Part shown: one piece after another, positions 5,142 through 31,311 of the stretch
Position numbering within the stretch: the stretch's first letter is position 1
How the letters are laid out: each line of letters starts with the position of its first letter
NCBI RefSeq assembly: GCF_014695385.1
Contig: NZ_JACJOD010000011.1
Location: 62,001-126,000, forward strand
Length of the DNA: 64,000 nucleotides
Source: Trichocoleus sp. FACHB-46
GTDB lineage: Bacteria; Cyanobacteriota; Cyanobacteriia; FACHB-46
Direction: 5' to 3'
Program-made: the position numbers and the translations under genes
Notes under the pieces: model-generated
Databases searched by the model: none
What the model was told of the DNA's origin: nothing
Seen by the model: the letters and a program-made list of their open reading frames with translations, nothing else

Positions 5142-5151
5142 GGATACCAGC

Positions 5152-6153: not shown

Positions 6154-6175
6154 CGTTGATGATATTTCCTGACTA

Positions 6176-7117
6176 ATGCAATTAGATAAACAAGATATTT
6201 TAGTTTCAATTATTTCAGTTAATTACAACGGCCTAGGAGTTATTCTAGACTACCTCGATTCGATTGAAAAATTTATTCATTCGGTTACTTATGAAGTCAT
6301 TGTGGTAGACAATGCCTCCACCGATGGCAGCCTAGAGCTAGTCGCACAAAAATTTCCTCAAGTGCAGCTCATTCAATCATCTAAAAATTTAGGCTTCGGG
6401 GCAGGAAATAATTTAGGTGCTCAAGCGGCCAAGGGAAATTTCTTATTTCTACTGAATACTGATACTGTCCTGCTCAGTGATCCACTACCACACTTATTGG
6501 CCTTGATGCAAACTCACTTGGATGTGGGGCTGATTGGGCCAAAACTGCTTAACCCAGATGGTACTTTGCAGCTTTCAGTAGTTCCTGCGATCGGCTTGCG
6601 AGGGGAATACCAAGCGCAACAACAGTTAAAAAAGTATCAAAGTGCCAATAATCAAGCAGCAATTAGCCAACAATTCCAGGTAATTCAAGAAGTCGAGATT
6701 GTAATTGGGGCAGCAATTTTCATTAGAAAAGAGGTGTTTGATAGCTTGGGTGGATTTGATGAAAACTTCTTTATGTACTTTGAAGAATCAGATTTGTGTC
6801 AGCGATCGCGAAACCAAGGCTGGAAAATTCTCTATACTCCTCAAACCGCACTGATTCACTTGAAAGGGCAATCTGTGAATCAGCGAGCTGATGCAATGGC
6901 AATTGAGTATCGCAAGAGTCAACTTTATTACTATCAAAAACATTGCTCTTTGGTGGAGCAAATTCTAGTAAGACTCTACCTTTTAATTAAATTTCTGAGT
7001 CTTTTTCTGAAAACTTTAAATCCCACTTTTGGTAAGATTCTTCTATTGTTATTCAACTTTAAGCAATATCCTTTAAGCTTTAAACCCAGATCAAGTCTCA
7101 ATGTCACTCCTCGTTAA
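6176..7117 (+). CDS. Family 2 glycosyltransferase, WbbL/RfbF-like
   Basis: GT2 enzyme of 313 residues with SIISVNYNG at the N-terminus, VVDNASTDGS near residue 45, NTDT as the likely metal-binding motif and FFMYFEESDLCQR, which is characteristic of the WbbL-type rhamnosyltransferase branch. A hydrophobic C-terminal stretch near residues 260-280 may attach it to the membrane. It starts 22 nt after the previous gene and overlaps the next by 17 nt. The base composition is visibly A/T-richer than rfbA or the genes beyond 8.2 kb, as is common for surface-polysaccharide genes that move between strains. Confidence 0.87.
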   Translation: MQLDKQDILVSIISVNYNGLGVILDYLDSIEKFIHSVTYEVIVVDNASTDGSLELVAQKFPQVQLIQSSKNLGFGAGNNLGAQAAKGNFLFLLNTDTVLLSDPLPHLLALMQTHLDVGLIGPKLLNPDGTLQLSVVPAIGLRGEYQAQQQLKKYQSANNQAAISQQFQVIQEVEIVIGAAIFIRKEVFDSLGGFDENFFMYFEESDLCQRSRNQGWKILYTPQTALIHLKGQSVNQRADAMAIEYRKSQLYYYQKHCSLVEQILVRLYLLIKFLSLFLKTLNPTFGKILLLLFNFKQYPLSFKPRSSLNVTPR

Positions 7118-8174
7118 TTTAGCCTTTTTGCCAGAAAGACCGACAGGTTGGGCAACCTATAGTCTCAATTTACTGAAGGCGCTGCCTCTGCCAGACATTA
7201 AAGCGGTTAGTCCAACACCTTTGACAGAAAATATAAAGACGTATCCAGCTCCTATAGGCTTAACAACAGAGTTTGGAGCCAAGGGGCATCTCAAACGATT
7301 ACTTTGGACTCAATTCTATTTGCCAAAAATTTATCAAAATCTTGGTTCTAAATTATTATTTTCCCCAGTTCCAGAGTCACCTATTTCAAAAAGCTGTAGG
7401 GCGATTGTCACAATTCATGACTTGATTCCTCTGCACTTTCCGCAGTGGTTTTCTTCGGCTCAAAAGCTGTATTGTCGCTACTATATTCCTGCTGTTCTAA
7501 GACAGGTAGAACAAATTATCTGTAACTCGCAGGCAACTGCTCAAGATGTCGTTGATTTTTTTGGTATCTCAGCTAAAAAAGTAATAGCAATTCCGTTGGC
7601 TTATGATGCCAGCAACTTTCACGACTTGCACTTACCCGGAAAAAATTATTTCCTCTATTTAGGCCGTCACAATCCCCACAAGAACCCACAGCGTTTGATA
7701 GCAGCTTTTGCGGCTTTGCCGAACTGCTCTGACTATGAACTGTGGCTGGCAGGACCCACCGACCCGCGATACACTCCCGCCCTACAAACCCAAATTGCCG
7801 AGTTAAACCTTCAACAGCAAGTGAAGTTTCTCGATTACGTGCCCTATGCTGAATTGCCCAGATTGCTGAATCAGGCGATCGCCTTGGTGTTTCCGAGCCT
7901 CTGGGAAGGATTTGGCTTACCTGTATTGGAGGCAATGGCCTGTGGTACTCCGGTGATCACGTCAGATTTGGCTTCTTTGCCAGAAGTGGCGGGTGATGCG
8001 GCTGTTTTGGTGAATCCCTATCGGGTGGCCGAATTAACCCAGGCCATGCAAGCGATCGCGACGGATACGAGTTTGCGATCGCAGTTGCGCGAGCGAGGAT
8101 TAGCGAGAGCCACACAGTTTAGCTGGGCGAAAACTGGACAGGCTACCGCAGAGATTTTGCAGCCATATCTCTAA
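7101..8174 (+). CDS. Family 4 glycosyltransferase
   Basis: GT-B fold enzyme (GT4/RfaG type) of 357 residues. The C-terminal half holds the nucleotide-sugar binding signature: [12 protein letters not shown], then [19 protein letters not shown], containing the EX7E acidic pair, then TPVITSD. The N-terminal half contains [13 protein letters not shown], typical of mannosyl/rhamnosyl transferases that act on lipid-linked oligosaccharide. It is the last gene of the rfb run, overlapping the preceding GT2. The sugar is not readable from sequence. Confidence 0.88.
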
Positions 8175-8211
8175 GCTCTCCGCCAAGTAGACTGGGCAAG
8201 CGCCAGCCAGT

Positions 8212-8580
8212 TTATTTTTGCCAAGCGACCAAAACTACACCGCTGACAATCAAACCCAGTCCGATGACTCGACTGACAGGGATGGTTTCGCGAAATAAAA
8301 AGTAGCCTAGCATCACCGCAAAGACGTAACTCAAGGCCACCGAAGGTGCGGCAATACTCAGCTTGACGCGAGTCAAGAGCAAAATATAGGCGATCGCGCC
8401 AAAGGCATAACAGGTCAGGCCCGCCAGCAACTCAGGAGTGAACAGAATGCTAAGGATGTGCCCTAACATATTGTCTACATTCACCTTGCCGAGTTTGAGT
8501 GCCCCTGCTTTGAGAAAGAACTGCCCCGCTACACTAGCGACAATTGACATTAACAACAAACTAAATTCTTGCAGGGTCAC
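8212..8580 (-). CDS. Small DMT-superfamily (EamA/SMR-like) membrane protein
   Basis: A 122-residue protein with four predicted membrane helices, at about residues 5-25, 45-68, 72-92 and 98-118. The single EamA-like unit (half the length of ordinary ten-helix DMT transporters) implies it works as a dimer, as in SMR and ArnE/ArnF-type flippases. Phrases such as SVALSYVFAVMLGYFLFRE are typical of the family. It is convergent with the glycosyltransferase operon, and a role in moving lipid-linked sugars is possible but unproven; the substrate is unknown. Confidence 0.75.
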   Translation of the reverse strand: MTLQEFSLLLMSIVASVAGQFFLKAGALKLGKVNVDNMLGHILSILFTPELLAGLTCYAFGAIAYILLLTRVKLSIAAPSVALSYVFAVMLGYFLFRETIPVSRVIGLGLIVSGVVLVAWQK

Positions 8581-8683
8581 AGAACTGCCTCACAGGGAAT
8601 TGCCAGTTTAGTTTACAGGTAGCTCAGCCAAGACTAGAGCTAAAATCGGTTCAAAATCGCAACTTGAAACTCAGTAGAATTTT

Positions 8684-9388
8684 ATGTCTGATCTGGCGCA
8701 ATCCCCTCCAACTAGCGATCAAATTTCTGCCTGGTTGAGAGGGCTACTCGCGATCGCTTGGGCTGATGGCAACTTTGACCGGGAAGAGCAAGAGCTAATC
8801 ACTAGCCTGACCCAGCAAGAATTGGCTCCCTCGAGCAGCTTAGAAGCCACAACAACAATCACACCGAGGGAACTGGCTGCCAGTTTGGGCCAAAGCAATG
8901 AAATTGCCCAACACTTCCTCCGCACGGCTGTGATGGTAGCGATCGCAGATGGTACCTATTCGGCTCAAGAAGACGCTCAGTTAGAGCAGTTTTGCCAAGC
9001 GCTGGGGCAAAGTTTAGAAGTGCTGGAAGCCTTGCGCCACACCCTCTATCATCCATCAGACACAACCTCGACCAGCCAAAACCTAGCTTCCGCTCCAGTC
9101 GCTCCGCTTAACCTGACAGAAGCGGAAAAAGCCGATTTGCTGCATCCGGTGCGGGAATGGCTCGATGAACTAGACGTTCAAGATCCTCAGGTGGCTCGCT
9201 TCCTTTGTAAGCTGATTCCCGCTCAATGTCCCTTCGAGCGCGATATTCAACTATTTGGTCGTAAGGTCGTGCATATTCCTCCCCTGTGCAAGCTAAATCC
9301 GCTCTACGAGCAGTTGGTGGGTTTGCGGTTTCGGGCGCTCTCTTACCTTGCCGATAAATGTGGTGAGGATGTAACGCCCTATTGCTAG
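8684..9388 (+). CDS. TerB-like plus Mo-dependent nitrogenase C-terminal family protein
   Basis: This 234-residue protein has two parts. Residues about 15-120 look like a TerB-type helical domain (AWADGNFDREEQELI and later VAIADGTYSAQEDAQLEQF, two EF-hand-like acidic repeats). Residues about 150-232 match the cyanobacterial Mo-nitro_C family (PF06967): LDVQDPQVARFLCKLIPAQC, then FGRKVVHIPPLCKLNPLY and ending in Cys. Despite its name that family is widespread in cyanobacteria and its function is not established. No nif gene is nearby, so this does not itself show nitrogen fixation. Not in an operon. Confidence 0.82.
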   Translation: MSDLAQSPPTSDQISAWLRGLLAIAWADGNFDREEQELITSLTQQELAPSSSLEATTTITPRELAASLGQSNEIAQHFLRTAVMVAIADGTYSAQEDAQLEQFCQALGQSLEVLEALRHTLYHPSDTTSTSQNLASAPVAPLNLTEAEKADLLHPVREWLDELDVQDPQVARFLCKLIPAQCPFERDIQLFGRKVVHIPPLCKLNPLYEQLVGLRFRALSYLADKCGEDVTPYC

Positions 9389-9410
9389 CAGGCTATTGGG
9401 TTGGCAGGGT

Positions 9411-10577
9411 TTAAATCAGCGATCGCTCCTCTGGGGTCATGTCTGCTTCCTGCACATCTCGGCGGAGTACCCAACCATTGGGACCCACAATGATTCTGGG
9501 TAGGTCTTGATGCTTTACCAGTTGCAGCGTGGTCATGTCGTAGGTGGTGTAAGTCGTCGAAGCTGAACCTAGCTTGACATCCACAATGGTTAAGGTCTTC
9601 TGTGGGGGGCGATCGCTGTTGAGCAAGCGCCTAGGTCCAGCTCCGATCGCCCCTGCATGCAGCAGTTCTAGCTTGCCGCGATGCCCCGGAAAGTAGGCGT
9701 GGTGGTGGCCGCTGATGTAAGTATGGACTCGATATTTTTCTAGCAGCGATCGCAACTTATCCGGCTGGTCGAGAATTTCACCCAGGCGATCGCGCCTCAC
9801 AGCTACGGCATAGAGGGGCAAGTGACCAATGGCAATGCGTAACTTGGCCTTTTGAGCCGCAGGACTGGCTAAGCTTTTTTCCACCCAAGCCAGTTGATCC
9901 GCTCGAATGGTCGCGCTAGAAGCATCCCAAACTAAATAGAAAATGCCATTTTGCTGAAACGTGTAGTAGAAGGGGAATTTACCGCGATCGACAAACTGCA
10001 AACCCGGATTGTGCTTTGGGTTATTCCAGTGGGCGGCAGCTAAATTGCGATCGCGTTGAAATAAGAAGGTGCCACCGGAGGACAGAGCTGCAGAAGCGTC
10101 GTGGTTGCCAACAGTAAAGCCGTAGGGCAGTTTGGCTTTGCGGAGCGGTGCCCCAATGTGGCGATCGAATGCGGCCCACATCGCTTGCACTTCCCCATCA
10201 GACAACGATTGAGATTGGCCTGCCACCATGTCGCCCCCACATAGCACCAAATCCGGTTGCCAAGCAGGAATTAGGGCGATCGCCTTATCTACTTCTGCCT
10301 CATAGTCCGTGGAACCGTATTGGCTATTTAAGTCGCTAATCACCGCAATTCGCACATCGCCTCTAGGTGGAGCAAACATCCCTTGAGGTGCGATCGCTTG
10401 GCCGACGTTGGCATTGGCAGGTTGGGTGGGAGTTGATGCTTTGGGTGGCGGCGGCTGGCTAGGAGCGGGCGAGCGCTGGATGGCTGATTCTGCAAAGGTT
10501 CTTTGCATTAGCACTGCTACACCAAAACCTCCTGTTAAACCGCTTAAAACCAGAAATTGACGGCGATTCAAGCTCAT
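9411..10577 (-). CDS. Tat-exported calcineurin-like metallophosphoesterase
   Basis: Starts with a twin-arginine signal (NRRQFLVLSG followed by a hydrophobic run to about residue 30), then a Pro-rich spacer, then the metallophosphoesterase core. The metal-binding blocks are visible in order: VISDLN, LVLCGGDMVAG, TVGNHDAS, IGHLPLY and ISGHHHAYF. In this superfamily these residues bind two metal ions and hydrolyse phosphate esters. The Tat signal places the enzyme in the periplasm or thylakoid lumen with its metals loaded before export. At 388 residues it is complete. The substrate cannot be read from sequence. Confidence 0.88.
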   Translation of the reverse strand: MSLNRRQFLVLSGLTGGFGVAVLMQRTFAESAIQRSPAPSQPPPPKASTPTQPANANVGQAIAPQGMFAPPRGDVRIAVISDLNSQYGSTDYEAEVDKAIALIPAWQPDLVLCGGDMVAGQSQSLSDGEVQAMWAAFDRHIGAPLRKAKLPYGFTVGNHDASAALSSGGTFLFQRDRNLAAAHWNNPKHNPGLQFVDRGKFPFYYTFQQNGIFYLVWDASSATIRADQLAWVEKSLASPAAQKAKLRIAIGHLPLYAVAVRRDRLGEILDQPDKLRSLLEKYRVHTYISGHHHAYFPGHRGKLELLHAGAIGAGPRRLLNSDRPPQKTLTIVDVKLGSASTTYTTYDMTTLQLVKHQDLPRIIVGPNGWVLRRDVQEADMTPEERSLI

Positions 10578-19318: not shown

Positions 19319-21148
19319 TTAGTAACTGCCCTGCGAGCTTGCTTCTGGTACGGGAAGTGCGGCTACGGCTGAGTGGGAAGTTTGGGCATAGTTTTGTTGT
19401 ACCGGAATCTCAAGCCAGAATTCAGTGCCGTGCTGGGGTTGGGACTCGCAATGTAGGGTTCCTCTGTGTCGCTGCACCACAATCTGGTAGCTGATTGATA
19501 GTCCCAATCCTGTCCCTTGGCCCACGGGCTTAGTGGTAAAGAATGGATCGAATAGGCGCTGTTTGACTTCATGGGTCATGCCAGGACCATTATCAGCGAT
19601 GCGAATGGCGACCCGATCCGGTGACACGAGTTCTGTGCGAATGCGAATTTGGCTAGGATGACTTTGAAGATTTGCTGCCGATCGCGTCTGGTTGTAGCTG
19701 TCTAAGGCATCGATCGCATTGCTGAGAATATTCATAAAGACTTGGTTGAGTTGCCCCGTATAGCACTCGACTAGCGGCAGATCACCGTACTCTTTGACCA
19801 CTGCAATGCCTGGATGTTCTGGCTTAGCTTTTAGCCGATTCTGCAAGATTAACAGCGTACTATCAATGCCTTCGTGAATATTGACACGCTTCATATCCGA
19901 TTCATCGAGGCGAGAAAAGTTGCGGAGCGAAAGCACAATTTGGCGAATCCGTTGAGTGCCAACTTTCATCGAAGCCAGCATTTTAGGCAGATCAATTTGC
20001 AGAAAGTCTAGATCGATTGCGTCAGCATATTGCTGGACTTCCGCCGGAATTGAAGAAGAGTGCCGCTGGTAGCGATGAATGAGTTCTAATAAATCTTGCA
20101 CATAGGTATGGGTGTACTCCAAATTTCCATGAATGAAGTTGACTGGGTTGTTGATTTCGTGCGCTACTCCCGCCACTAGTTGCCCCAAGCTGGACATTTT
20201 TTCAGTCTGGATCAGTTGGGATTGGGCTTGTTGGAGTTCTTCGATGGCTTGCTCTAGCTGTTGAGCGCGATCGCGTTCCCGTTCCTCCGATTGCCGTAGT
20301 GAGTCTTCGGCTTGCTTGCGATCGCTGATCTCACTTTCCAAACTTTCATTGACCCGCACAAGTTCTGCCGTCCGCTCAGTCACCTTCTGTTCTAAGGAAC
20401 GATAAAGCTCGGCTAACTGCGCCGCCATCTGATTAAACTCTTGTGCCAGTTTCTCGATTTCATCCCCAGTGGAGATGTTTACCTGATGGTCTAAATTGCC
20501 AGCCCCAATTGTCGCCGCACCTACCTGGAGCTGATGGATAGAACGAATGACGGGCAGCAAAATCAATAAAAATTGACCGACCAAGACCAAAACAATTAGC
20601 CCAATAATGGCATAGGTAAAAGCTTGGGCTCCTTGCTTAAACTGTTGTCCAGCTTGCTGAGCCAAAACATCCTGCTGTTGAGCCGTATCGGTTAATAGAG
20701 CCAAATAAAAGTCGATGTCTTTACCAAAAGAGTCTAAGGCTCGTAAATCTTGCTGAATTTGATTTCCCTTGGCGGGTGTGTTGGTCAGGGTTCCTGCCAA
20801 GCGCACTAAGAAACGATGTCGCCGTCGCACGACAGGGATTTCTGCGGCCTCTGGCATAATGCGCTCCAACTCTTCCAAGCTGATCAAAAAGTTAGACATT
20901 GCCTTTTGGTAATCGGCCATATCCGCCGCTGCTTGATCCGTCAGCAAGAAAGCCTTGAGCGCTAGTAGTTGCTCGCGTAAGGAAAGTTGCAGCTCTAAGG
21001 AAATGATCCGAGCTTGAATGGTTTTTTCCCGGCTCGCTTGGATCGACTGATCGGCTTGTTTAATCAGGAGGGTACTGCCGCTCATGAAGCTAGCCACCAA
21101 CCCAGCCGCCACCAGCGATGAGCCAATAAACTTCTGCCAAATCTTCAT
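19319..21148 (-). CDS. Membrane sensor histidine kinase with HAMP domain
   Basis: 609 residues: TM helix about 7-30, an extracytoplasmic helical region 31-175, TM 177-200, HAMP 200-252 (IGAGNLDHQVNISTGDEI), coiled coil 253-320, HisKA with VAGVAHEINNP (H330) and HATPase with LSNAIDAL, DNGPGMTHEV and GTGLGLSIS. It is an orthodox transmitter with no receiver. The extracytoplasmic part resembles the four-helix bundle ligand-sensing module of chemoreceptors. Its start overlaps the stop of the PhnD-type binding protein gene by 4 nt (ATGA), so the two are translationally coupled and the binding protein is a good candidate partner for the sensor. The transmitter is a close paralogue of two other kinases at 22.2-25.0 and 29.8-31.3 kb. 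Confidence 0.92.
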   Translation of the reverse strand: MKIWQKFIGSSLVAAGLVASFMSGSTLLIKQADQSIQASREKTIQARIISLELQLSLREQLLALKAFLLTDQAAADMADYQKAMSNFLISLEELERIMPEAAEIPVVRRRHRFLVRLAGTLTNTPAKGNQIQQDLRALDSFGKDIDFYLALLTDTAQQQDVLAQQAGQQFKQGAQAFTYAIIGLIVLVLVGQFLLILLPVIRSIHQLQVGAATIGAGNLDHQVNISTGDEIEKLAQEFNQMAAQLAELYRSLEQKVTERTAELVRVNESLESEISDRKQAEDSLRQSEERERDRAQQLEQAIEELQQAQSQLIQTEKMSSLGQLVAGVAHEINNPVNFIHGNLEYTHTYVQDLLELIHRYQRHSSSIPAEVQQYADAIDLDFLQIDLPKMLASMKVGTQRIRQIVLSLRNFSRLDESDMKRVNIHEGIDSTLLILQNRLKAKPEHPGIAVVKEYGDLPLVECYTGQLNQVFMNILSNAIDALDSYNQTRSAANLQSHPSQIRIRTELVSPDRVAIRIADNGPGMTHEVKQRLFDPFFTTKPVGQGTGLGLSISYQIVVQRHRGTLHCESQPQHGTEFWLEIPVQQNYAQTSHSAVAALPVPEASSQGSY

Positions 21149-22113
21149 TGTCTTGGACCAGAATTTGCCTCTAAGGTCTTTTGTAATTGTCGAATCGGCT
21201 CATAATCAGCATCCTCGACCAATGTATATCCCGCAGATTCAGCTCCTGTAACGTCTGCAAGTCCCTCAGGAGCATTGATCAGAGCTTTTTTAAGGCTAGA
21301 AACGATTTCCGGGGAAAGCTTCTTGGAAACAACGATCGGTGACATGGGAATGGGAGCGGATTCCCAAATGATCTGGTACTGGCTGGGGTCAAGCTTGCCA
21401 GATTTTTGCCGCTTTAGCAAAGAGGGTCTGCTGTCGGCGATCGCGTCTACCACGCCTGCTTCCAAATCCGCCTGCGCTTTGTCATGGTTGCCAGAATATT
21501 TGACGGTGGCAAAGTCTTGGTCTGGACGCAGACCTATTTTCTGGAAGTGAGCCATTGGCACTAAGTAACCAGAGGTGGAGGATCGGCTGACGAAGGCAAA
21601 CCGCTTGCCTTTAAGATCGCTCAAGCTATCAATTCCAGCAGCTTTCCTAGCAATGATGACGCTGGTATACGAAGGACGACCTGTGCTTTTTTCAATCGGA
21701 GCGACGATCGGCTCAACTTGAGGGTTTTGCTGTTGGGCCAGTACGTATGTTAAAGGCCCCAAATAGGCAACTTCTACCTTTTCCTGTACTAGCAGCTCAA
21801 CTGCTTGCTCATAGCTCGGAGTAACTTGGAAGTAAATGGGATATCCCAGCGACTTTTCTAGATACTCTGCAAGAGATTCCAGTTGTTTTTCTTGTTCTTT
21901 AGGACTCAGAGCTGGAATTACCGCCACATCAATGACGTTGAACTCTTTGACTTCTCGATTGCTAGTTGTCGGTGGATTGGAGGCGGAAGGGGTAGGGCGA
22001 TCGCCAGATTCAGGCCCGCAACTCACACTGAGCAGCATCGGGAACAGTGCCAGGCTATAGCGAACCCAGGTGCGGCAGCTAAAACGAGTGAGAAAAGACA
22101 ATGTAGCTGGCAT
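21145..22113 (-). CDS. PhnD-type phosphate/phosphonate-like substrate-binding protein
   Basis: 322 residues; an N-terminal signal with a lipobox-like end (LLSVSC, Cys near residue 32), then a type-2 periplasmic-binding fold. Recognisable segments are VAVIPALSPKEQ, VAYLGPLTYVLA, LKGKRFAFVSRSSTSGYLVP and GVVDAIADSR, typical of the PhnD/SsuA-like family that includes phosphonate and phosphite binders. No permease or ATPase of that type lies beside it; the adjacent genes are kinases. It may therefore deliver ligand information to the downstream kinase instead of feeding a transporter. Ligand unknown. Confidence 0.88.
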   Translation of the reverse strand: MPATLSFLTRFSCRTWVRYSLALFPMLLSVSCGPESGDRPTPSASNPPTTSNREVKEFNVIDVAVIPALSPKEQEKQLESLAEYLEKSLGYPIYFQVTPSYEQAVELLVQEKVEVAYLGPLTYVLAQQQNPQVEPIVAPIEKSTGRPSYTSVIIARKAAGIDSLSDLKGKRFAFVSRSSTSGYLVPMAHFQKIGLRPDQDFATVKYSGNHDKAQADLEAGVVDAIADSRPSLLKRQKSGKLDPSQYQIIWESAPIPMSPIVVSKKLSPEIVSSLKKALINAPEGLADVTGAESAGYTLVEDADYEPIRQLQKTLEANSGPRQ

Positions 22114-22199: not shown

Positions 22200-24971
22200 C
22201 TACTCAGGCACAGAGGCAGCTTCAGCTTCACTAACGAGGAATGGGGCACTTTGGCTAATGGGGATTTCGATCCAAAACTCTGCTCCTGTCCCCGGTTGGG
22301 TGTTGCACCAAAGGGTTCCCCGATGTTTCTCCACAATGATTTGGTAGCTGATAGAGAGTCCTAAGCCTGTTCCCTGACCGACGGGCTTAGTTGTAAAAAA
22401 CGGATCGAACAAGCGTTGAACCACAAAAGCAGCCATACCAGGGCCGTTGTCTTGAATCCGCACAGCGACTCGCTCTGGATGTAAGACTTCAGTGCGGATT
22501 GTAATAGTGGGTGCAGGCTCTGTCAGACCGGATGCGATCGCTGCCTCACTTTGACTATCCAAGGCATCAATGGCATTGCTCAAGATATTCATGAAGACCT
22601 GATTTAGCTGTCCGGCGTAGCATTCTACTTGGGGTAAGTCGCCATATTGCTTAATCACCTCAATCCCTTGAGAGCCTGGTCGAACTTTGAAACGGTTTTG
22701 CAGGATGAGTAAAGTGCTATCAATTCCTTCATGGATGTTGACAGGCTTCATCTCTGATTCGTCTAGCCGAGAGAAGTTGCGGAGCGACAGAACAATTTGG
22801 CGAATGCGATCGGCCCCGACTCTCATAGAACTCAGCATCTTCGGTAGATCTGCAACTAGAAACTCAAAATCGTTGGTTTGGCGATGTTGCTGAATTTCTA
22901 ACGCTGGCTCAGGATAATGCTGCTGATATAGATCAATGAGTTTTAGCAAATCCTGGGTGTATTCATTGGCGTAACTCAGGTTGCCGTAGATAAAATTCAC
23001 AGGGTTATTGATCTCATGGGCGATCCCTGCCACCAACTGACCCAAACTCGACATTTTCTCAGTCTGAATTAACTGGGTTTGGGTGGTTCGCAGTTCTGCC
23101 AAAGCTTGGGTGAGCCGCTGAGCTTGAGCTTGAGCCGCAGCAGCGGTGGCTCGACTCTGAGCGTAAAGCTCGGCTTGATCGATCGCGATCGCTAACTGGT
23201 CGGCGACATCCTGCAATAACTCCACTTCATCCGTACTCCAAGACCGAGAGCCGCTGTAATGCTCACAAACAATGGCTCCGATTTGTCCAGAATTGGTATA
23301 GATGGCGATCGCTAGCAAAGAAACGAGACCTAAATCCGTTAAAGCTTCTCGGCTCCTAGTGTCTAATTGAGGAGCCGTGGCAATGTTGTCAATCCACAGC
23401 GGGCTCAGCTTCAGCAAGATTTCCCCTAGCACTTCCACGGCGATCGTGGGGGGTGGCAAGGAGCGATGAGTCAGGTGAGGCGCAGAAACTTCATGGGCCA
23501 ATTTAAACCGGGCGGCTTCCTCGCTCTGGTTGTACCAAAGAAACTCGCAGCGATCGATCTCGAAGAGATGGTGAATTTCCTGGACAGCAGTCCGCACAAT
23601 GGTTTCTAGCTCTAGCGTGCTCCGGATTTGAATGGATAGGCGACGCTTCAGCAGTTCTTCTCGCTTGGTCAACTCTAGCAACTGATTTTTGGCTTGTTGC
23701 AGATGTTGATTGGTGTTTACCAGTTCGGCCATCGCCACTTCTAGTTCTCGCGACTTGCGCTCTAGCTGGCAGCTGTACTGGATGACCTGGGGCACTTCTG
23801 CTAGTAAGTCAAGGATTAAAGCTGAATCTCTCAAGTCAGATTCATCTACACCAAACCAGGGTTGGGGCTTGATCGAGCGTTCTGAGACATATAGCGACTG
23901 AAATTGCCCCGTGGGCAAAATCTCACCAATGCGGCAACTCTTCCAAACATGGTGATTCGGCTCAATCTGAATGAAACCACTAGGGGCAATCAAGGTTTGG
24001 CCATAGGCAGCGCAGCGAACTGGGTGGGTTTCAAAGGATTCAGCGGTTTCAACGGCTTGTTTCCATAGATAAACCTGGCTGTAAGCGGCTTCGACGGGAT
24101 CGCTGGTGACTCGCTCTGCTCCGTACAGCGTTTTGAACCGTTCTACGAAAGCCTGGTTTGGCAAACTGTCAATGCTTTGGAAATAGCTCCAAGTAGCGTA
24201 GTGTCCTGCCATTGCTGCTGGAGTGATGCGTTGCAGTTCGTCTTCGGTCACGCTCACCGCCATAATGGGAATTTCTGCCGCGGAAATCCCTGCTGCATGG
24301 TACTGCTGGTAAAATTCCACATTGCCGTTGCCGTTTAAAGTGCTAAAAACGACATCGGGTCTAGCTTGTTTGATTTGCTCAATCACGGAGCGATAATCTG
24401 TGGTTTCTAAAGCGGGATAGGCTTCGCCCACAGTCATGCCTCCCAGTTGCTTCAACCGCGCTTTGATAATTTTGTTCGCAACTCTGGGAAAGACATAATC
24501 CATGCCCAGGAGATAAAAGCGGCGATGTTGATGCTGAAACAACCAATTGACGGCTGGCTCCACTTGCTGATTGGGGCAGGCTCCGGTGTAAAAAATGTAT
24601 TTGGAACACTCCAAACCTTCATACTGCACGGGGTACCAGAGCAAGCGATCGAATTCTTCTAAGACTGGTAAGACCAACTTGCGGCCTGTAGAAGACCAAC
24701 CGCCAAACAAGGTGACGACTTGCTCATTTTTTAGGAGCTTTCTAGCTTTTTGTTCAAAGACGTAAGGGTCAGAAGCGCTATCTTCCACCACAGGTACGAT
24801 CGCTTGACCGAGCACTCCCCCGGCTTGGTTAATTTCAGCGATCGCCATTAAGGCAGCATCTTTCAGAGACGATTCGCTGATTGCTAGCGGCCCACTTAAA
24901 GAATGTAGGATTCCAACTCGGACGGTGCCATCTGGAGGATTCATCGTGCGCTGTGCTACCAAACTGCTCAT
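22200..24971 (-). CDS. Urea/amide-type binding protein fused to GAF and histidine kinase
   Basis: 923 residues with an unusual order: residues 15-375 are a type-1 periplasmic-binding-protein domain of the UrtA/AmiC/FmdD (urea, short-chain amide) kind, seen in VGILHSLSGPLAISE, WYPVQYEGLECSKYIFYTGA and GHYATWSYFQ; then a coiled coil (395-445), a GAF domain (445-605), HisKA with VAGIAHEINNP (H652), and HATPase with NILSNAIDAL, DNGPGMAAFV and GTGLGLSIS. There is no signal peptide and no membrane helix before or after the binding domain, so the sensor should be cytosolic and would read an intracellular ligand, as AmiC does. It begins 17 nt after the ABC ATPase stop on the same strand. No receiver domain. 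Confidence 0.92.
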   Translation of the reverse strand: MSSLVAQRTMNPPDGTVRVGILHSLSGPLAISESSLKDAALMAIAEINQAGGVLGQAIVPVVEDSASDPYVFEQKARKLLKNEQVVTLFGGWSSTGRKLVLPVLEEFDRLLWYPVQYEGLECSKYIFYTGACPNQQVEPAVNWLFQHQHRRFYLLGMDYVFPRVANKIIKARLKQLGGMTVGEAYPALETTDYRSVIEQIKQARPDVVFSTLNGNGNVEFYQQYHAAGISAAEIPIMAVSVTEDELQRITPAAMAGHYATWSYFQSIDSLPNQAFVERFKTLYGAERVTSDPVEAAYSQVYLWKQAVETAESFETHPVRCAAYGQTLIAPSGFIQIEPNHHVWKSCRIGEILPTGQFQSLYVSERSIKPQPWFGVDESDLRDSALILDLLAEVPQVIQYSCQLERKSRELEVAMAELVNTNQHLQQAKNQLLELTKREELLKRRLSIQIRSTLELETIVRTAVQEIHHLFEIDRCEFLWYNQSEEAARFKLAHEVSAPHLTHRSLPPPTIAVEVLGEILLKLSPLWIDNIATAPQLDTRSREALTDLGLVSLLAIAIYTNSGQIGAIVCEHYSGSRSWSTDEVELLQDVADQLAIAIDQAELYAQSRATAAAAQAQAQRLTQALAELRTTQTQLIQTEKMSSLGQLVAGIAHEINNPVNFIYGNLSYANEYTQDLLKLIDLYQQHYPEPALEIQQHRQTNDFEFLVADLPKMLSSMRVGADRIRQIVLSLRNFSRLDESEMKPVNIHEGIDSTLLILQNRFKVRPGSQGIEVIKQYGDLPQVECYAGQLNQVFMNILSNAIDALDSQSEAAIASGLTEPAPTITIRTEVLHPERVAVRIQDNGPGMAAFVVQRLFDPFFTTKPVGQGTGLGLSISYQIIVEKHRGTLWCNTQPGTGAEFWIEIPISQSAPFLVSEAEAASVPE

Positions 24972-24988
24972 AAACCTGACATGCCGAA

Positions 24989-25834
24989 TTAGCCTGGCTC
25001 AAGGCGATCGCGCATGGTATGAACGACCTGTCGTTTAATTTGCAGAAATTCCGGGGTCAACTTCAATTCCATATCCCGCTGCGTTGGCAAATCTATGCCA
25101 ATTTCTGCCTTGATCTGCCCTGGATGGGCACTCATTACATAAATCCTCTGAGATAGAAAAATTGCTTCTTCTACGTCATGGGTAATCATCAAAACTGTGA
25201 CGTGGGTTTGCTCCCAAAGATTGAGCACAAACTGCTGCATCTGCTCTTTGGTTTGGGCGTCCAAAGCGCCAAATGGTTCATCCATCAGAAGAACATCTGG
25301 TTCATTCGCTAAAGCCCGCGCGATCGCCACTCGTTGTTTCATCCCACCCGATAGCTGTTTAGGATAAGCTTTGGCAAATTGAGTTAGCCCAACTACGTCT
25401 AAATAATACGCTACCCGTTGCCTCCGTTCCGGTTTGGGTAGACGCTGCAACTTTAGCCCATAACCAATGTTTTGAGCGACGGTGAGCCAGGGAAATAGCG
25501 TGTAGCTTTGAAAGACCAAACCGCGATCGCGACCGGGGCCTTGCACTGCCACACCATCCATCAGCACTTGCCCAGACGTGGGTGGAACCAGCCCTGCCAC
25601 AATATTCAGTAGGGTTGATTTACCACAACCAGACTTGCCCACAATACAGACAAACTCATTAGGGTAAATGTTGAGGTTGATGTCTTGCAAGACTACCAGC
25701 GGCCGTCTCTGACTCTGAAAGGTTTTGTTGAGGTGGCGGACCGCTAGTTTGGGTTGGCCCATCGAGGTGGCTAGGCTATTAACACTGGAAGCAGTTTCAA
25801 GACTGGAATTAGGAGGTCTAGTAAACGGTGCCAT
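24989..25834 (-). CDS. ABC transporter ATPase, nitrate/sulfonate/taurine type
   Basis: ATPase of the NrtD/SsuB/TauB family. Walker A GKSGCGKST, Q-loop VFQSYTLFPWLT, signature LSGGMKQRVAIARAL, Walker B VLLMDEPFGALD and the switch His in MITHDVEEA are all intact. Three in-frame starts exist: TTG at 25870, ATG at 25858 and ATG at 25834; the last has GAGG nine nt upstream. It should power the permease encoded divergently at 26080 with the lipoprotein at 26962-27969. It is also the first gene of the minus-strand unit leading into the two kinases and the PhnD-type protein. Confidence 0.9.
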   Translation of the reverse strand: MAPFTRPPNSSLETASSVNSLATSMGQPKLAVRHLNKTFQSQRRPLVVLQDINLNIYPNEFVCIVGKSGCGKSTLLNIVAGLVPPTSGQVLMDGVAVQGPGRDRGLVFQSYTLFPWLTVAQNIGYGLKLQRLPKPERRQRVAYYLDVVGLTQFAKAYPKQLSGGMKQRVAIARALANEPDVLLMDEPFGALDAQTKEQMQQFVLNLWEQTHVTVLMITHDVEEAIFLSQRIYVMSAHPGQIKAEIGIDLPTQRDMELKLTPEFLQIKRQVVHTMRDRLEPG

Positions 25835-25949
25835 TGCGAATTGCCTCAGGGTGAGCATGAGTCCGACCAATGGTAGTGCCTCAGACCCTCTATCTTCAGC
25901 ATGCCCTTGGGCAATCTAGGCGTAACGGATGTAACCGAAGGGGTGTTGA

Positions 25950-25977: not shown

Positions 25978-26079
25978 TGGGGCGGGTAGGTAGGCGATCG
26001 CTGCCTTCAGATGACTAATTTGGGCGTGCTAACTTGGGCAACATCCAATGAATTTTTACAAGGAATTTTTACCAAAGTT

Positions 26080-26898
26080 ATGACTAAAAAGCTATTTCAG
26101 GCTTGGTGTAGTCTCTGGAAAATTCGGGGTGAGATTTCTAAGCGTCTATATTTTTTGATGGTGCTTCTATCTATTTCAATACCTCTGTTAGGTTGGGCTT
26201 GCATCACTTACAGCGGCTGGGTAGATAGCCAGTTTTTGCCAAGCCCCACTACTGTGTTAGCTCGTGGCTATACTTCACTACAAAGTGGGGAATTAATTGC
26301 AGATCTAATCGCTAGTTTGTCAAGAGTAATTTGGGGCTTCTTGGCTTCAGCTATTCTTAGCATTCCTTTGGGGTTAATGATTGGTGCCTTCAAGAGTATG
26401 CAAGGGCTTCTAGAACCAATTTTGGGTTTGCTTCGGTATATGCCAACTGCTGCTTTTATCCCTTTAATTATTTTATGGATTGGCATTGATGAGCCAGCCA
26501 AAATCGCCATTATCTTTCTGGGTACCTTCTTCTATAACATCTTGATGATTGCTGATGCCGTCAAGTTTATTCCGAGTGATTTAATTAAAGTTAGCTATAC
26601 CTTGGGAGCCAAAGAAAAAGACATCTTCTTCGATGTGATTTTTCCAGCTACGCTACCTCATATTATTGATACTCTCAGAATCAATATTGCGACGGCCTGG
26701 AATTTTGTCGTAATTGCCGAGTTGATTGCAGCTAGTTCAGGTCTAGGCTATCGGATTTTAATGGCTCAAAGAGCTTACCAAACCGATGCCATTTTTGTGG
26801 GGATTATTGTGATTGGTTTAGTAGGCTTACTAATAGATTTTAGCTTCAAGCTACTCTTTAACTTAGTCGTACCTTGGGCGACCGATAAAAATCATTAA
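26080..26898 (+). CDS. ABC transporter permease, SsuC/TauC/NrtB type
   Basis: Integral membrane protein of about 272 residues with six or so helices and the permease EAA-type loop, seen in LIKVSYTLGAKEKDIFFDVIFPATLPHI shortened here to its key residues LGA near residue 172 and FPA near 183. The family N-terminal block FLPSPTTV is also present. The frame is open from 26011, but ATG at 26080 gives the usual short cytoplasmic N-terminus. The gene is A/T-rich compared with its neighbours. It lies divergent to its likely ATPase and convergent to its likely binding protein, an unusual split arrangement. Confidence 0.9.
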   Translation: MTKKLFQAWCSLWKIRGEISKRLYFLMVLLSISIPLLGWACITYSGWVDSQFLPSPTTVLARGYTSLQSGELIADLIASLSRVIWGFLASAILSIPLGLMIGAFKSMQGLLEPILGLLRYMPTAAFIPLIILWIGIDEPAKIAIIFLGTFFYNILMIADAVKFIPSDLIKVSYTLGAKEKDIFFDVIFPATLPHIIDTLRINIATAWNFVVIAELIAASSGLGYRILMAQRAYQTDAIFVGIIVIGLVGLLIDFSFKLLFNLVVPWATDKNH

Positions 26899-26961: not shown

Positions 26962-27969
26962 TCAAAGTAACTTCACCAAAGAATCATCATAGATTTTATT
27001 GACATCCACTACAACGGGAGTTAGGTTCATATCTTTGGCAGTTTTGGCTGCAAACTTCAGACTGTCAAAGACATTTCTAGGATGTTGAGGGTTAAAGACA
27101 ATCTTCTTGTTGTCTTCAATGCCGAATAACTTGACTCCCCCCACTTGTTGTGCGGCTTCTTCCGGAGTAACGTTGAGCCGCTTGGCTACAATAGCGATCG
27201 CTTTTTCATCTTTCTGCTGGACCAGCGTTACTGCTTTGTCGATCGCTTTCAGGTAGGCTAAAATTTCAGCTCTCTTGGTTTGAATCACCTTCTCCTTGGC
27301 GATCAAACCATCAGGAACAATATTGCTGTCTTTGCTAGTAAACAGAATCTTGCCGCCGCCTTGCTTTGCTGCCTTGGCCATCCAAGGATCATAAGTTACG
27401 GCAACATCAACTTTTTTGGCGGCAAATGAAGCAGCAGCATTAGCGGCTGAAGTATCAACAATCTTGATGTCCTTCTCTGTTAACCCGCCTTTTTCTAAAT
27501 AGCGTCGTAGTAGTAACACTTCAAACAAAAGATTTTCCCGAGCTACGGTTTTACCCTTTAAATCAGAGGGTTGACTAATGTCACGACCAATAATGCCGTC
27601 AGAGCCATCTGAATAGTCAAAGAGCATTAATAGTTTAATGGAAGTGTCGCGCTGAGCCAATGGCACTAAGTCAGGAACTCCCGTCAAAGCTAGATCAACT
27701 TTGTTGGCTAATAAAGCAGTATTAGGGTCGCTTTGGGTGGGGAAGAAAACCTCCTTAACTTCAATGCCCTCTGCTTTAAACAGATTCAAATCTGTCGCGA
27801 CATATTGGGCAGCAAATCCTGGCCAAGGAGGAACCCCAACAATCAAAGGCTGATTAGCAACAGAATTGGTTTGAGGTTGGGAACTACAAGCAATTGGCAA
27901 GCACAAGGCCAATGAAAATAAAAAGAATAGAAAGCCTGTTCGATAGCGATTAAGCATACTTCTGAACAT
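26962..27969 (-). CDS. ABC substrate-binding lipoprotein, NMT1/SsuA-like
   Basis: 335 residues with a lipoprotein signal (hydrophobic 11-27, Cys in LPIACSS) and an NMT1/THI5-like type-2 binding fold: IVGVPPWPGFAAQYVA, LANKVDLALTGVPDL, DLKGKTVARE and VDVAVTYDPWMAKA. The family includes binders of nitrate, sulfonates, taurine, pyrimidines and related small N- or S-compounds. AGGAA lies six nt before the ATG. With the neighbouring ATPase and permease it completes a single ABC importer; the acetamidase next door suggests a nitrogenous substrate, which is inference. Confidence 0.9.
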   Translation of the reverse strand: MFRSMLNRYRTGFLFFLFSLALCLPIACSSQPQTNSVANQPLIVGVPPWPGFAAQYVATDLNLFKAEGIEVKEVFFPTQSDPNTALLANKVDLALTGVPDLVPLAQRDTSIKLLMLFDYSDGSDGIIGRDISQPSDLKGKTVARENLLFEVLLLRRYLEKGGLTEKDIKIVDTSAANAAASFAAKKVDVAVTYDPWMAKAAKQGGGKILFTSKDSNIVPDGLIAKEKVIQTKRAEILAYLKAIDKAVTLVQQKDEKAIAIVAKRLNVTPEEAAQQVGGVKLFGIEDNKKIVFNPQHPRNVFDSLKFAAKTAKDMNLTPVVVDVNKIYDDSLVKLL

Positions 27970-28120
27970 ACTTAATTCCTGGTAAGTACCTGAACTTAGT
28001 TAATCATCATCCTACTTCCGGACTGTGTGATCCTTAAGCATTTGTGGCTGGCTGGTTTGCTCTAAGTTTATCTAAGCTATTGTTTAACTGATTCAGTGCT
28101 TGTCCCTGTGGGGTGGATCA

Positions 28121-29278
28121 ATGACAGAACATCAGCATGACTCTGATCAAGACTCATCTGCCTATGCAATGGAATTCTGTCGAGATCCGGAAGTCGCCAA
28201 ACTGGATATCTTGGCGATCGCTGAGACTGTGCGAGATGCGGGAAACCTGCATGTCCTTAAAGCCACACCTAACACCTGTTTCTGGGGCTTTTTTGATCAG
28301 TCTTTGCCCCCAGTCCTCACGATCAACTCCGGGGACATTGTTTATGTGGAAGCCTTGACTCATCAAGCGGGAGGAGCACCCGATTTGATGATGGACCAAG
28401 GTGTGCGGGATGTCTACGAACAAGTCAGCGATCGCGGTCCAGGCTTACACATCATGACAGGGCCGATCGCGGTGAAAGATGCTGAGCCAGGAGACACACT
28501 AGTCGTCAGAATTTTGAAGACCACGCCGCGTCTGCCTTATGGAGCCAACATTGCCGCTCATTGGGGCTACCTGTACAACAGCTTCCGCAAAGAGCGCATT
28601 ACTGTTTACAAACTAGATACTGAATCGGGATTGGCCCAACCTGCCTTTGCTTACGACTTCAGAGAGCGCCCGTTGTATAACCAACCGGGATTGATAGTGC
28701 CGCCCGTAGCCACCCACCGCGAGCCGATCAAAACCCATGTTGCTATTCCTCTACGACCTCACTTCGGCATTATGGGGGTGGCTCCTCCGCAGAAGGGTCG
28801 CGTCAATAGCGTTCCCCCTGGACCTTTTGGTGGCAATATCGATAACTGGCGCATGGGAGCAGGGGCTACGGTTTACTATCCCGTGTTTACGCCCGGAGCC
28901 AACTTCTTTGTTGGGGACCCTCACATGGGGCAAGGAGATGGCGAAATTTCAGGCACCGCGATCGAAGCATCAATGAATGCTTGGCTGCAAATCTCGCTCT
29001 TGAAAGACTTTCCCATCGGCAGCCCTCTCCTGGAAACTCAATCCCACTGGATTACCCACGGCTTTCACGATGATCTCAACCAAGCGGTGCTCCAGTGTGC
29101 CGATCAAATGCTGGACTTCTTACAAACCAAGCGTAAGATGACTGCTGACGAAGCTTATGCCCTCATGTCAGTTGCGGTAGACTTCGGGATTACTCAAGTC
29201 GTGAATCAGCGACGAGGCTGTCACGCTGCACTCCCCAAACAGCTATTTTTACCAACACCTGATCTACCTGAAGTTTAA
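28121..29278 (+). CDS. Acetamidase/formamidase family protein
   Basis: 385 residues of the FmdA/AmdA family, which hydrolyses formamide or acetamide to ammonia and the acid. Diagnostic parts are GDIVYVEALTHQAGG, GPIAVKDAEPGDTLVV, FGIMGVAPP, PPGPFGGNIDNW and GDPHMGQGDGEISGTAIE; the HMGQGDGE block is the family hallmark. ATG at 28121 has GGTGGA about six nt upstream. It lies divergent from the ABC binding protein and about 3 kb from the amide-type sensor kinase, so uptake, sensing and hydrolysis of an amide could be linked. Cytosolic. Confidence 0.92.
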   Translation: MTEHQHDSDQDSSAYAMEFCRDPEVAKLDILAIAETVRDAGNLHVLKATPNTCFWGFFDQSLPPVLTINSGDIVYVEALTHQAGGAPDLMMDQGVRDVYEQVSDRGPGLHIMTGPIAVKDAEPGDTLVVRILKTTPRLPYGANIAAHWGYLYNSFRKERITVYKLDTESGLAQPAFAYDFRERPLYNQPGLIVPPVATHREPIKTHVAIPLRPHFGIMGVAPPQKGRVNSVPPGPFGGNIDNWRMGAGATVYYPVFTPGANFFVGDPHMGQGDGEISGTAIEASMNAWLQISLLKDFPIGSPLLETQSHWITHGFHDDLNQAVLQCADQMLDFLQTKRKMTADEAYALMSVAVDFGITQVVNQRRGCHAALPKQLFLPTPDLPEV

Positions 29279-29419: not shown

Positions 29420-29806
29420 GTGCTCGAATACATTACTTTGCCTAATACGCTACCTCCTGTTGCGCCTTACTCTCACGCAGTTCGAGCGGGTGACTTTCTG
29501 TTTGTCACAGGTCAATTATCTGAAGACCCTGAAACTGGAGAGATTGTGCGAGGTCCGATTGCGGAGCAAACTAAGCAAGTCATGGAGAATCTAAAATTAG
29601 TTTTGGAGCATGCTGGTACAGGTCTAGACAAAGTGGTAATGAGTCGGATTTTTATTACTGATTTTCGGGAATATCAAACTGTCAATGAAATTTATTCGGC
29701 TTACTTTCCAGCTAATCGCTTACCGAGCCGAACCACAGTCGGAGTGATTGGATTGGCAGGGTTAGGTGATGTGGAAATTGATTTAATTGTTTATTGCGGT
29801 GATTAG
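29420..29806 (+). CDS. Rid family (YjgF/YER057c) protein, Arg-less type
   Basis: 128 residues, GTG start with GGAG eight nt upstream. Clear Rid fold: APYSHAVRAGDFLFVTGQL, then QVMENLKLVLEHAG, then LPSRTTVGVIGL. Canonical RidA enzymes deaminate reactive enamines/imines using the Arg equivalent to E. coli Arg105, within VARLPKD. Here the aligned stretch reads VIGLAGLGD, with Gly at that place, which puts the protein among the non-canonical Rid subfamilies whose functions are less clear. It follows the amidase by 141 nt on the same strand and could act in the same nitrogen pathway. Confidence 0.88.
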   Translation: MLEYITLPNTLPPVAPYSHAVRAGDFLFVTGQLSEDPETGEIVRGPIAEQTKQVMENLKLVLEHAGTGLDKVVMSRIFITDFREYQTVNEIYSAYFPANRLPSRTTVGVIGLAGLGDVEIDLIVYCGD

Positions 29807-31311
29807 GTGGCGATGGCGGGTTGGAGCGGTAACTTGAGGCAAAATTCTGCTCCTCGGCCTGATTGTGAGACGCACCAAAGTGCCCCTTGATGAGTTTCTG
29901 TCACAATCTGCTGGCTGAGAGCAAGCCCGATTCCAGTTCCTTTCCCCGTCGGTTTAGTGGTAACAAAAGGTTCAAAGAGTCGAGCTTTTACTTCATCGCT
30001 GATTCCGGGACCGTTATCAGCAATCGAAACAGTGATTGTGCTTGTATCTTCTGCTTTGGTGCGAATGGTAATTCTGGGAAGTAGGCAAGAATTGTCGGTG
30101 CAATTCTGAGTAGTGCGATCGCTACTTCTCAAAGCATCAATAGCATTACTCAAAAGATGCATAAAAACTTGATTAATTTGACCTGGATGGCATTCAATCA
30201 AGGGTAAATTGCTGTACTCTTTGATGATTTGAATCCCTGGAAAGCCACCCGCTGGTTTCAGGCGATGCTGCAAGAGTAACAATGTGTTGTCGAGGCTCTG
30301 ATGAATATTGGCTCGTCGCATGCAGGCATCATCGGGTCGAGAAAAGCTGCGTAAAGATAAAACAATGGATTGGATTCGCTTAACCCCAACCGCTAGCGAA
30401 GTTAAAACCTTGGGAAGATCCTGAACTAAGAATTCGAGGTCAGCCAGTTTGATTTGTTGTTGAATCTCTAGCTCAGGTTGCGGGTGGTACTTTTGGTAGA
30501 GCGCTAATAGGTTGAGTAAATTGTGGCTATACTCCCTCACATGCCCCAAATTACCATAGATGAAGTTGACAGGATTGTTAATTTCTTGAACAATACCTGT
30601 CACTAATTGACCCAGGCTAGACATTTTCTCAGTTTGAATCAGTTGCGCCTGGGTTTGTTTCAGCTCAACTAACATCGTTTCCAGTTGCTGCGCTTGTTGT
30701 TGTGCCGCTGCCGTCGCTGCCTCGCGCTGCTGAAACAGTTCTGCGTGACTTAAATCAATAGCTAGTTGTTCGGCTTCGCTCTCTGATTGATATTGGCTCA
30801 CGACTGCATCTAAGGTTTCTAGGAGCCTGGTAGAAGCAGCGCTCAGAATCGCTTGCAAATGGGGATTTTCTAAAGTTAGTTCTGCGGCTGGAGCCGTCGC
30901 GATCGCTCGCACCTGATAAATGTAGTCGCGTACTTGTTGGTCTAGATTCAACGGTGGCTCAAAATACATCGTTTGCAGAGCCGGAGACAAACGCCCTGGC
31001 AGTTTCAGTCTGGCATCCCCTTTTAGCAACCCTTGATGAGACTGCTCCATCAACGCGAGCGCTGATAGTAAGACAGACTGCAACCGAGTCCGCTCAGCTT
31101 CATCACGACTGCAAACTAGTTGCAAAGCGAACAAAGCTGTCCGTTGAGAGAGCATCCGCTGGCGACCGCTTACATTCACCACTGCCGCATTAATCTCTCG
31201 GCTGGTACTAAGCTGCTCTAAATCGAAACTGTTGCCAAAACTGAACACAGACAATAACTCCAAATGAAGTAACTTGTGAGAAACATCAGGATTCACAGAT
31301 GCATTATTCAT
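29803..31311 (-). CDS. Soluble sensor kinase-like protein lacking the phospho-acceptor His
   Basis: 502 residues. Residues about 30-180 resemble the PilJ/NarX-type helical sensing module (NVSGRQRMLSQRTALFALQL), here without membrane helices. A coiled coil follows, then a transmitter clearly paralogous to those of the kinases at 19.3 and 22.2 kb. In the H-box the residue that is His in both paralogues (GVAHEINNP, GIAHEINNP) is Gln242 (GIVQEINNP, codon CAA). The ATP-binding part looks intact: HLLSNAIDAL, DNGPGISDEV and GKGTGIGLALS. It is thus predicted not to autophosphorylate conventionally; it may act as an ATP-binding partner or trans-acting subunit. It overlaps the Rid gene tail to tail by 4 nt. 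Confidence 0.9.
   Translation of the reverse strand: MNNASVNPDVSHKLLHLELLSVFSFGNSFDLEQLSTSREINAAVVNVSGRQRMLSQRTALFALQLVCSRDEAERTRLQSVLLSALALMEQSHQGLLKGDARLKLPGRLSPALQTMYFEPPLNLDQQVRDYIYQVRAIATAPAAELTLENPHLQAILSAASTRLLETLDAVVSQYQSESEAEQLAIDLSHAELFQQREAATAAAQQQAQQLETMLVELKQTQAQLIQTEKMSSLGQLVTGIVQEINNPVNFIYGNLGHVREYSHNLLNLLALYQKYHPQPELEIQQQIKLADLEFLVQDLPKVLTSLAVGVKRIQSIVLSLRSFSRPDDACMRRANIHQSLDNTLLLLQHRLKPAGGFPGIQIIKEYSNLPLIECHPGQINQVFMHLLSNAIDALRSSDRTTQNCTDNSCLLPRITIRTKAEDTSTITVSIADNGPGISDEVKARLFEPFVTTKPTGKGTGIGLALSQQIVTETHQGALWCVSQSGRGAEFCLKLPLQPAIAT

Follow-up and report, generated by a model that had tools for sequence, protein, structure and literature searches.

A UrtA-like binding domain on a predicted cytosolic histidine kinase of Trichocoleus sp. 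FACHB-46, with relatives on several signalling outputs in cyanobacteria

Two kinds of described protein lie close to the one reported here. AmiC, the amide receptor of the Pseudomonas aeruginosa amidase operon, is used in the cytosol as a separate protein that acts on AmiR, without a kinase fusion; the structure title in our match list calls it an amide receptor/negative regulator. The other is UrtA, and in the Prochlorococcus protein nine residues surround urea: W120, S122, Y141, Q144, E146, Y190, F192, N246 and S274 (PMC10392092). In the excerpted text of that study, changing S122, Q144, Y190 or N246 to alanine weakens or abolishes urea binding, and a change at F192 has little effect. Binding-protein Pfam domains also act as sensors in signalling proteins of the cytosol and the membrane, according to excerpts of PMC9602780, whose list of such domains includes PF13433, and binding-protein-type domains occur in c-di-GMP proteins (PMC8846402, in the excerpts of which the word “urea” is absent). 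A literature search whose coverage left most subscription journals outside returned no account of a Peripla_BP_5 histidine kinase in cyanobacteria, no urea sensor kinase described for cyanobacteria, and no description of the UrtA-like cytosolic module discussed below.

We analysed a window of 64,000 nucleotides from Trichocoleus sp. FACHB-46 (contig NZ_JACJOD010000011.1, positions 62,001 to 126,000), which encodes a histidine kinase with a UrtA-type domain at its N-terminus.

Domain order and location of the fusion kinase

The fusion kinase gene and its parts are as follows.

22200..24971, minus strand: gene for a 923-residue protein composed of a UrtA-like domain, a GAF domain and a histidine kinase (ORF, Pfam, NCBIfam)
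23850..24923, minus strand: UrtA-type binding domain, residues 17-374 (Pfam, pocket mapping, model of residues 1-425)
23622..23873, minus strand: linker and coiled coil, residues 367-450, of which 367-417 is the part common to other output classes (protein matching; helix in models)
23181..23612, minus strand: GAF domain, residues 454-597 (Pfam)
22254..23045, minus strand: kinase core, with HisKA from residue 643 including His652, and HATPase_c at 788-906 (Pfam, aligned motifs)

The open reading frame starts with ATG. Its N-terminal domain matches the whole Peripla_BP_5 profile (PF13433) at 484 bits against a Pfam cut-off of 27 (E = 3.7e-145, far beyond chance), and the NCBIfam UrtA profile TIGR03407 at 486.4 bits, slightly below the cut-off of 492.75. 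At the other end of the protein, the Pfam HisKA match covers residues 643-670, the start of that domain, and the kinase motifs are intact: H652, N799, DNG (841-843), G845, FFTT (858-861) and GTG (867-869) are invariant across an alignment of 12 sequences with this architecture, one of them the query. Three histidine kinase genes lie within 12 kb in this part of the window (19319-21148, 22200-24971 and 29803-31311), with cores 53-67% identical and different sensors. The core of the fusion kinase is 69.5% identical to that of its HAMP-containing neighbour and at most 64.1% identical to that of any fused relative, a likeness that may reflect local duplication or conversion.

The binding domain begins after only 16 residues, and the reading frame is closed by a stop 10 codons 5′ of the ATG, leaving no space for a signal peptide. 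On the Kyte-Doolittle scale the highest mean over 19 residues is 1.47, and 1.6 is reached nowhere, which gives no membrane helix. The same scan misses two leaders, one in the UrtA encoded in this genome (L060) and the other in the PhnD-like protein, so it is the short N-terminus and the upstream stop that speak against a signal peptide. Together these features make a cytosolic location well supported, in agreement with the first-pass annotation of this DNA, which had proposed a kinase with neither signal sequence nor membrane helix. The protein lacks the export signal of a UrtA transporter subunit, and it resembles AmiC in having this type of fold without one.

Export or membrane exposure of the binding domain, which is usual for type-1 binding proteins of the UrtA kind, appears barely credible here. 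The blindness of the hydropathy scan to known leaders leaves some room for it, as does a distant relative, L131, the sole fused entry with a hydrophobic stretch close to the N-terminus in that scan; the stop 10 codons before the ATG, the 16 leading residues and the absence of a membrane helix leading to a kinase that uses ATP all argue the other way. N-termini of the collected proteins were read from stop-to-stop frames, and one of them, L082, runs off its contig with its N-terminus outside the sequence. In seven relatives of the membrane-hairpin class, which also lack a leader, two hydrophobic helices separate the sensor from HAMP, and the sensor would therefore stay inside the cell.

Fold and pocket of the binding domain

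A model of the full-length protein was poor (pLDDT 60.7, pTM 0.32), and residues 1-425 were therefore modelled alone from an alignment of 41 sequences (pLDDT 87.3, pTM 0.84). The closest solved structure was 8tg1 (Z 52.4, rmsd 2.1, 364 aligned residues, 56% identity), followed by 8hic (Z 50.7, rmsd 2.4, 370 aligned, 46% identity), 7s6e (Z 50.5, rmsd 2.7, 372 aligned, 47% identity) and 7s6f (Z 50.0, rmsd 2.7, 374 aligned, 45% identity). AmiC (1pea) ranked after these urea-binding proteins (Z 47.7, rmsd 2.1, 357 aligned, 34% identity), and Foldseek likewise placed urea-binding structures first. Residues 17-374 belong with UrtA both by sequence family (PF13433, with TIGR03407 just under its cut-off) and by fold (Z 50.0-52.4), and by sequence and predicted structure the domain is nearer to urea-binding proteins than to AmiC, the comparison that the first-pass annotation had suggested making. 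The placing of a UrtA-type fold at the N-terminus of this kinase was thus borne out by profile and model, and the idea of an intracellular binding domain serving as a kinase sensor, AmiC-like in location, is supported by the predicted domains, N-terminus and fold.

At the nine positions that surround urea in UrtA, the query has W92, S94, Y113, Q116, E118, Y159, F161, N213 and S240, all identical to those of the Prochlorococcus protein. The same residues are kept in 24 of 24 exported UrtAs, which were chosen by position from the matches nearest to the query, and in the UrtA of the same genome. An exported UrtA-like protein of Vasconcelosia (L114, 9812-11173) is changed at three of the nine and may be a paralogue with a different ligand. 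In AmiC the positions of W, Q, F, N and S274 are occupied by Tyr, Pro, Tyr, Val and Thr, so that the query departs from the amide pocket of AmiC at five positions and has four in common with it. A urea or amide pocket had been proposed for this domain; the urea-binding UrtA type is the part that stands, and the amide-binding AmiC type is not what the residues resemble. The sequence indicates neither a membrane or secreted location nor a pocket incompatible with amides or urea.

Judged by these residues, urea is a more likely ligand than an AmiC-type amide. The query keeps 133 of the 176 columns that are invariant in UrtA, and agreement at nine of nine would arise by chance with a probability of about 0.075 if the columns behaved alike.

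The AmiC-like cytosolic reading is likely to be right. The fuller proposition, that the protein senses urea or a close amide inside the cell in an AmiC-like manner and acts on the kinase through the coiled coil, we regard as evenly balanced. The ligand, urea or a compound very like it (a short amide, for instance), would be available inside the cell through UrtABCDE, diffusion or internal nitrogen catabolism, and would be clasped between the two lobes of the sensor, as in UrtA. Lobe closure might then shift the linker helix, and the movement could be passed to the GAF domain and a second coiled coil, and from there to the HisKA/HATPase core, where altered autophosphorylation would change phosphotransfer to a response regulator. 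We infer both the coupling through the linker and the direction of the response.

Neighbouring genes and genes for urea use

The genes around the fusion kinase are as follows.

19319..21148, minus strand: HAMP histidine kinase, with a 4-base overlap with the PhnD-like gene (ORF, Pfam)
21145..22113, minus strand: PhnD-like binding protein, downstream of the fusion kinase (Pfam, NCBIfam)
24989..25870, minus strand: ABC ATPase of the nitrate/taurine type, 17 bases upstream of the fusion kinase (ORF, Pfam, NCBIfam)
26011..26898, plus strand: ABC permease (Pfam, NCBIfam)
26962..27969, minus strand: NMT1/SsuA-like ABC binding protein (Pfam, NCBIfam)
28100..29278, plus strand: divergent FmdA/AmdA-family protein (Pfam, NCBIfam, score comparison)
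29420..29806, plus strand: RidA-family protein (Pfam, NCBIfam)

The first-pass annotation had taken a plausible ligand class from the adjacent amidase and ABC genes. The ATPase gene, 17 bases from the kinase, keeps part of that suggestion standing. The FmdA/AmdA gene does not serve it well: it lies 3.1 kb from the kinase on the opposite strand, and its product scores 112.7 bits over the whole protein; taken piecewise, it gives two stretches of 70.1 and 38.8 bits, against 640 and 637 bits for canonical members in two other genomes (G044 and G197). Two sister genomes of the genus (L132 and L133) have the genes from ArsR to BchH in the same order, including those for the PilJ kinase, FmdA, the PhnD-like protein and the HAMP kinase, and one sister (G001) also keeps the order of ProRS, DUF2993 and GerMN. 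The fusion kinase, the ABC genes and RidA had no match in the corresponding stretch of both sisters, so the FmdA gene is kept where the fusion is absent. An amide ligand deduced from gene neighbours is weakened by this synteny and by the divergence of the FmdA member.

The PhnD-like and HAMP kinase genes (19319-22113), a binding-protein/kinase pair of its own, are likewise kept in both sister genomes. In G044, genes for DUF2993, GerMN and ArsR adjoin the fusion kinase L064, and a PilJ kinase gene lies near the fusion kinase L084; from these matching neighbours we infer that the site may be old and that the gene was lost in the sisters.

Across the 14 GAF kinases of the family described below, for which stretches of unequal length, several of them short, were available, RidA genes lie near four (the window, L091, L092 and L095), permease and ATPase genes near three (the window, L091 and L092) and FmdA genes near two (the window and L091). 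The permease and FmdA beside L091 are no close copies of those in the window (30% and 40% identity). A functional link of the kinase with the ABC and FmdA genes is possible, because the ATPase gene is so close on the same strand and a comparable set of ABC, RidA and FmdA genes lies beside L091; the kinase might then control the neighbouring ABC genes.

These neighbours bear on two other readings. The sensor could read short-chain amides (formamide, acetamide) as AmiC does, serving the FmdA/AmdA and ABC genes that lie nearby in the window and beside L091, and the fold of AmiC is indeed the same (Z 47.7). AmiC departs, however, at five of the nine pocket positions, the divergent FmdA member of the window persists in sisters that have no fusion, and an FmdA-family gene is found near just two of the 14 GAF kinases (several stretches being short), which leaves this reading a modest chance. 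Alternatively, the domain might not sense a ligand at all but act as a platform for docking or dimerisation, with the product of the upstream ABC ATPase gene as a possible partner, and permease and ATPase genes do recur beside L091 and L092. A platform would need no conserved ligand pocket, and, within the stretches available, homologues of both genes lie near only three of the 14 GAF kinases; we consider docking decidedly improbable.

The fusion kinase is not encoded with UrtBCDE, as a UrtA subunit would be: urtABCDE lies with ureG and ureD on contig C8, and the window lies on C11. A urease alpha gene is found about 10 kb from urtA on C8. All 20 genomes searched have urease alpha, among them the two fusion-less sisters, and the enzyme therefore does not discriminate between carriers and non-carriers. 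A gene for a CHASE4-HAMP histidine kinase is located between urtE and ureD (L060, 1401-3650, on C8 of the same genome), which gives the urea transport cluster its own membrane sensor kinase. NtcA control of the operon was considered and rejected, as the window holds five sites against 4.34 expected and none is near the operon. No RNA family in the window reached its gathering score, and promoter and terminator scans of the window fell below the shuffle means.

A family of UrtA-like fusions and comparison with known systems

A pattern scan of a species-genome collection yielded 48 loci, and fused open frames of at least 550 residues were present in at least 16 genomes among the matches listed (sample: 386 genomes of the phylum). 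The distinct cyanobacterial fusions number 66, the query included, with near-identical proteins retained, so that the entries are not independent; duplicates (L097, L125), fragments (L126, L127) and exported proteins (L060, L114) were left out. Carriers include Coleofasciculus, Moorena, Symploca, Leptolyngbya, Nodosilinea, Lyngbya and Pseudanabaena. The outputs are of the nucleotide-cyclase type in 30, GAF kinases in 14, SpoIIE phosphatases in seven, membrane-hairpin HAMP kinases in seven, GGDEF in four, other kinases in three and unrecognised in one (L112), classes having been assigned by Pfam for 26 proteins (including the duplicate L097) and by C-terminal similarity for the others; L093, cut by a contig end, was placed with GGDEF on a partial tail, a doubtful assignment. 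One locus (L083 of G012, 3591-9809) carries a tandem pair of fusion kinases, the second with an altered pocket and no linker match. A fragment on a contig filed as a Chloroflexaceae MAG (L126) is 62% identical to the query domain and has the Coleofasciculus-type Glu; the contig is possibly a misbinned cyanobacterial one.

Query residues 366-445, mostly 367-417, match 58 of the 71 collected proteins, spanning the kinase, GGDEF, cyclase and SpoIIE classes. The 13 lacking a linker match are the seven hairpin kinases, two exported proteins, two fragments, the second L083 protein and L131. Matches to exported UrtA end near residue 373-378 (with a 444-residue query), so the linker is absent from exported UrtA; in both the full-length and the 1-425 models the region is predicted to be helical. 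Because the linker is common to so many of the fusions and UrtA matches stop before it, domain and linker look like one module that has moved among outputs, and the hairpin kinases, which have no linker match, look like a separate fusion. The hairpin kinases group with exported UrtAs with a support of 1.0 (86-sequence tree, midpoint root, several weak nodes). The GAF kinase L068, which has the linker, neighbours the hairpin kinases and UrtAs (0.997), apart from the other GAF kinases, and therefore fits poorly with a single clean split. Soluble fused domains contain a mean of 5.18 cysteines against 1.92 in exported ones, and the hairpin class 1.71 (the two duplicates being included in the means).

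All nine urea residues are kept in 27 of the 66 fusions, with marked differences between classes: SpoIIE 7 of 7, GGDEF 4 of 4, hairpin kinases 6 of 7 and other kinases 2 of 3, as against 6 of 30 cyclases and 2 of 14 GAF kinases, namely the query and one relative. The altered GAF kinases number 12, with Q144E in seven (L064 and L084-L089, which form a clade), Y190I in four, and Y190H with F192Y in one. A cyclase clade from Pseudanabaena and relatives (L077, L080, L109-L124, L129 and L130) has a largely altered pocket, for example Gly, Ser, Tyr, Tyr, Glu, Gly, Tyr, Ser, Arg, and would accordingly bind a ligand other than urea, or none. Since 12 of 14 GAF kinases are altered at urea-pocket sites, urea is our best guess for the query protein and not for the GAF-kinase class as a whole.

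This variation raises the reading that a different small nitrogen compound is bound, with guanidinium as the guess for the Gln-to-Glu clade, or that the domain is drifting away from urea. It draws on the changes at Q144, Y190 or F192 in its own class, the first two being positions where alanine weakens or abolishes urea binding in UrtA (excerpts of PMC10392092), and on guanidine-I riboswitches in 10 of 13 genomes searched (that of L084 being outside the sample). The query itself nevertheless keeps all nine residues, the guanidinium idea derives from charge only, and riboswitches accompany both the Gln and the Glu versions, so that their presence does not discriminate and was rejected as a pointer to guanidine. 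For the query we consider this reading unlikely.

Counted against a urea sensor are the pocket drift within its own class, the chance of about one in thirteen or so implied by the column comparison above, the ubiquity of urease, the sisters without the fusion, the lack of an NtcA site near the operon and the tree position of L068. With these in mind, we put forward tentatively, and as a possibility short of an even one, an intracellular urea-sensing module, consisting of the UrtA-like domain and linker, that serves kinases, diguanylate cyclases, nucleotide cyclases and SpoIIE phosphatases, alongside a separate hairpin HAMP fusion, with some pockets (Gln to Glu, Tyr to Ile and more) retuned to other small nitrogen compounds. 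If urea is the ligand, cyanobacteria would read internal urea or nitrogen turnover by a route apart from those of ammonium and 2-oxoglutarate. The occurrence of the sensor on several outputs suggests that cyanobacteria monitor urea, or a small molecule related to it, inside the cell; the soluble sensor with its various outputs also provides a set for side-by-side testing and a possible biosensor part.

Compared with known systems, the query domain is like UrtA of UrtABCDE (8hic, 7s6e, 7s6f) and the Caldicellulosiruptor urea-binding protein 8tg1 in fold, at 45-56% identity and with nine of nine residues. UrtA is exported, feeds a transporter and is without the linker, whereas the query domain is predicted to be cytosolic, has the linker and is fused to a kinase. 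AmiC (1pea, 1qnl, 1qo0) places the same fold in a regulator, but is 34% identical and differs at five of the nine pocket residues. The binding-protein sensor idea is the same as in PMC9602780, the excerpts of which name no urea-type or cyanobacterial fusion kinase. Cytosolic sensors resembling binding proteins are thus an established concept, and the UrtA-like module common to several outputs is the part for which our literature search returned no description.
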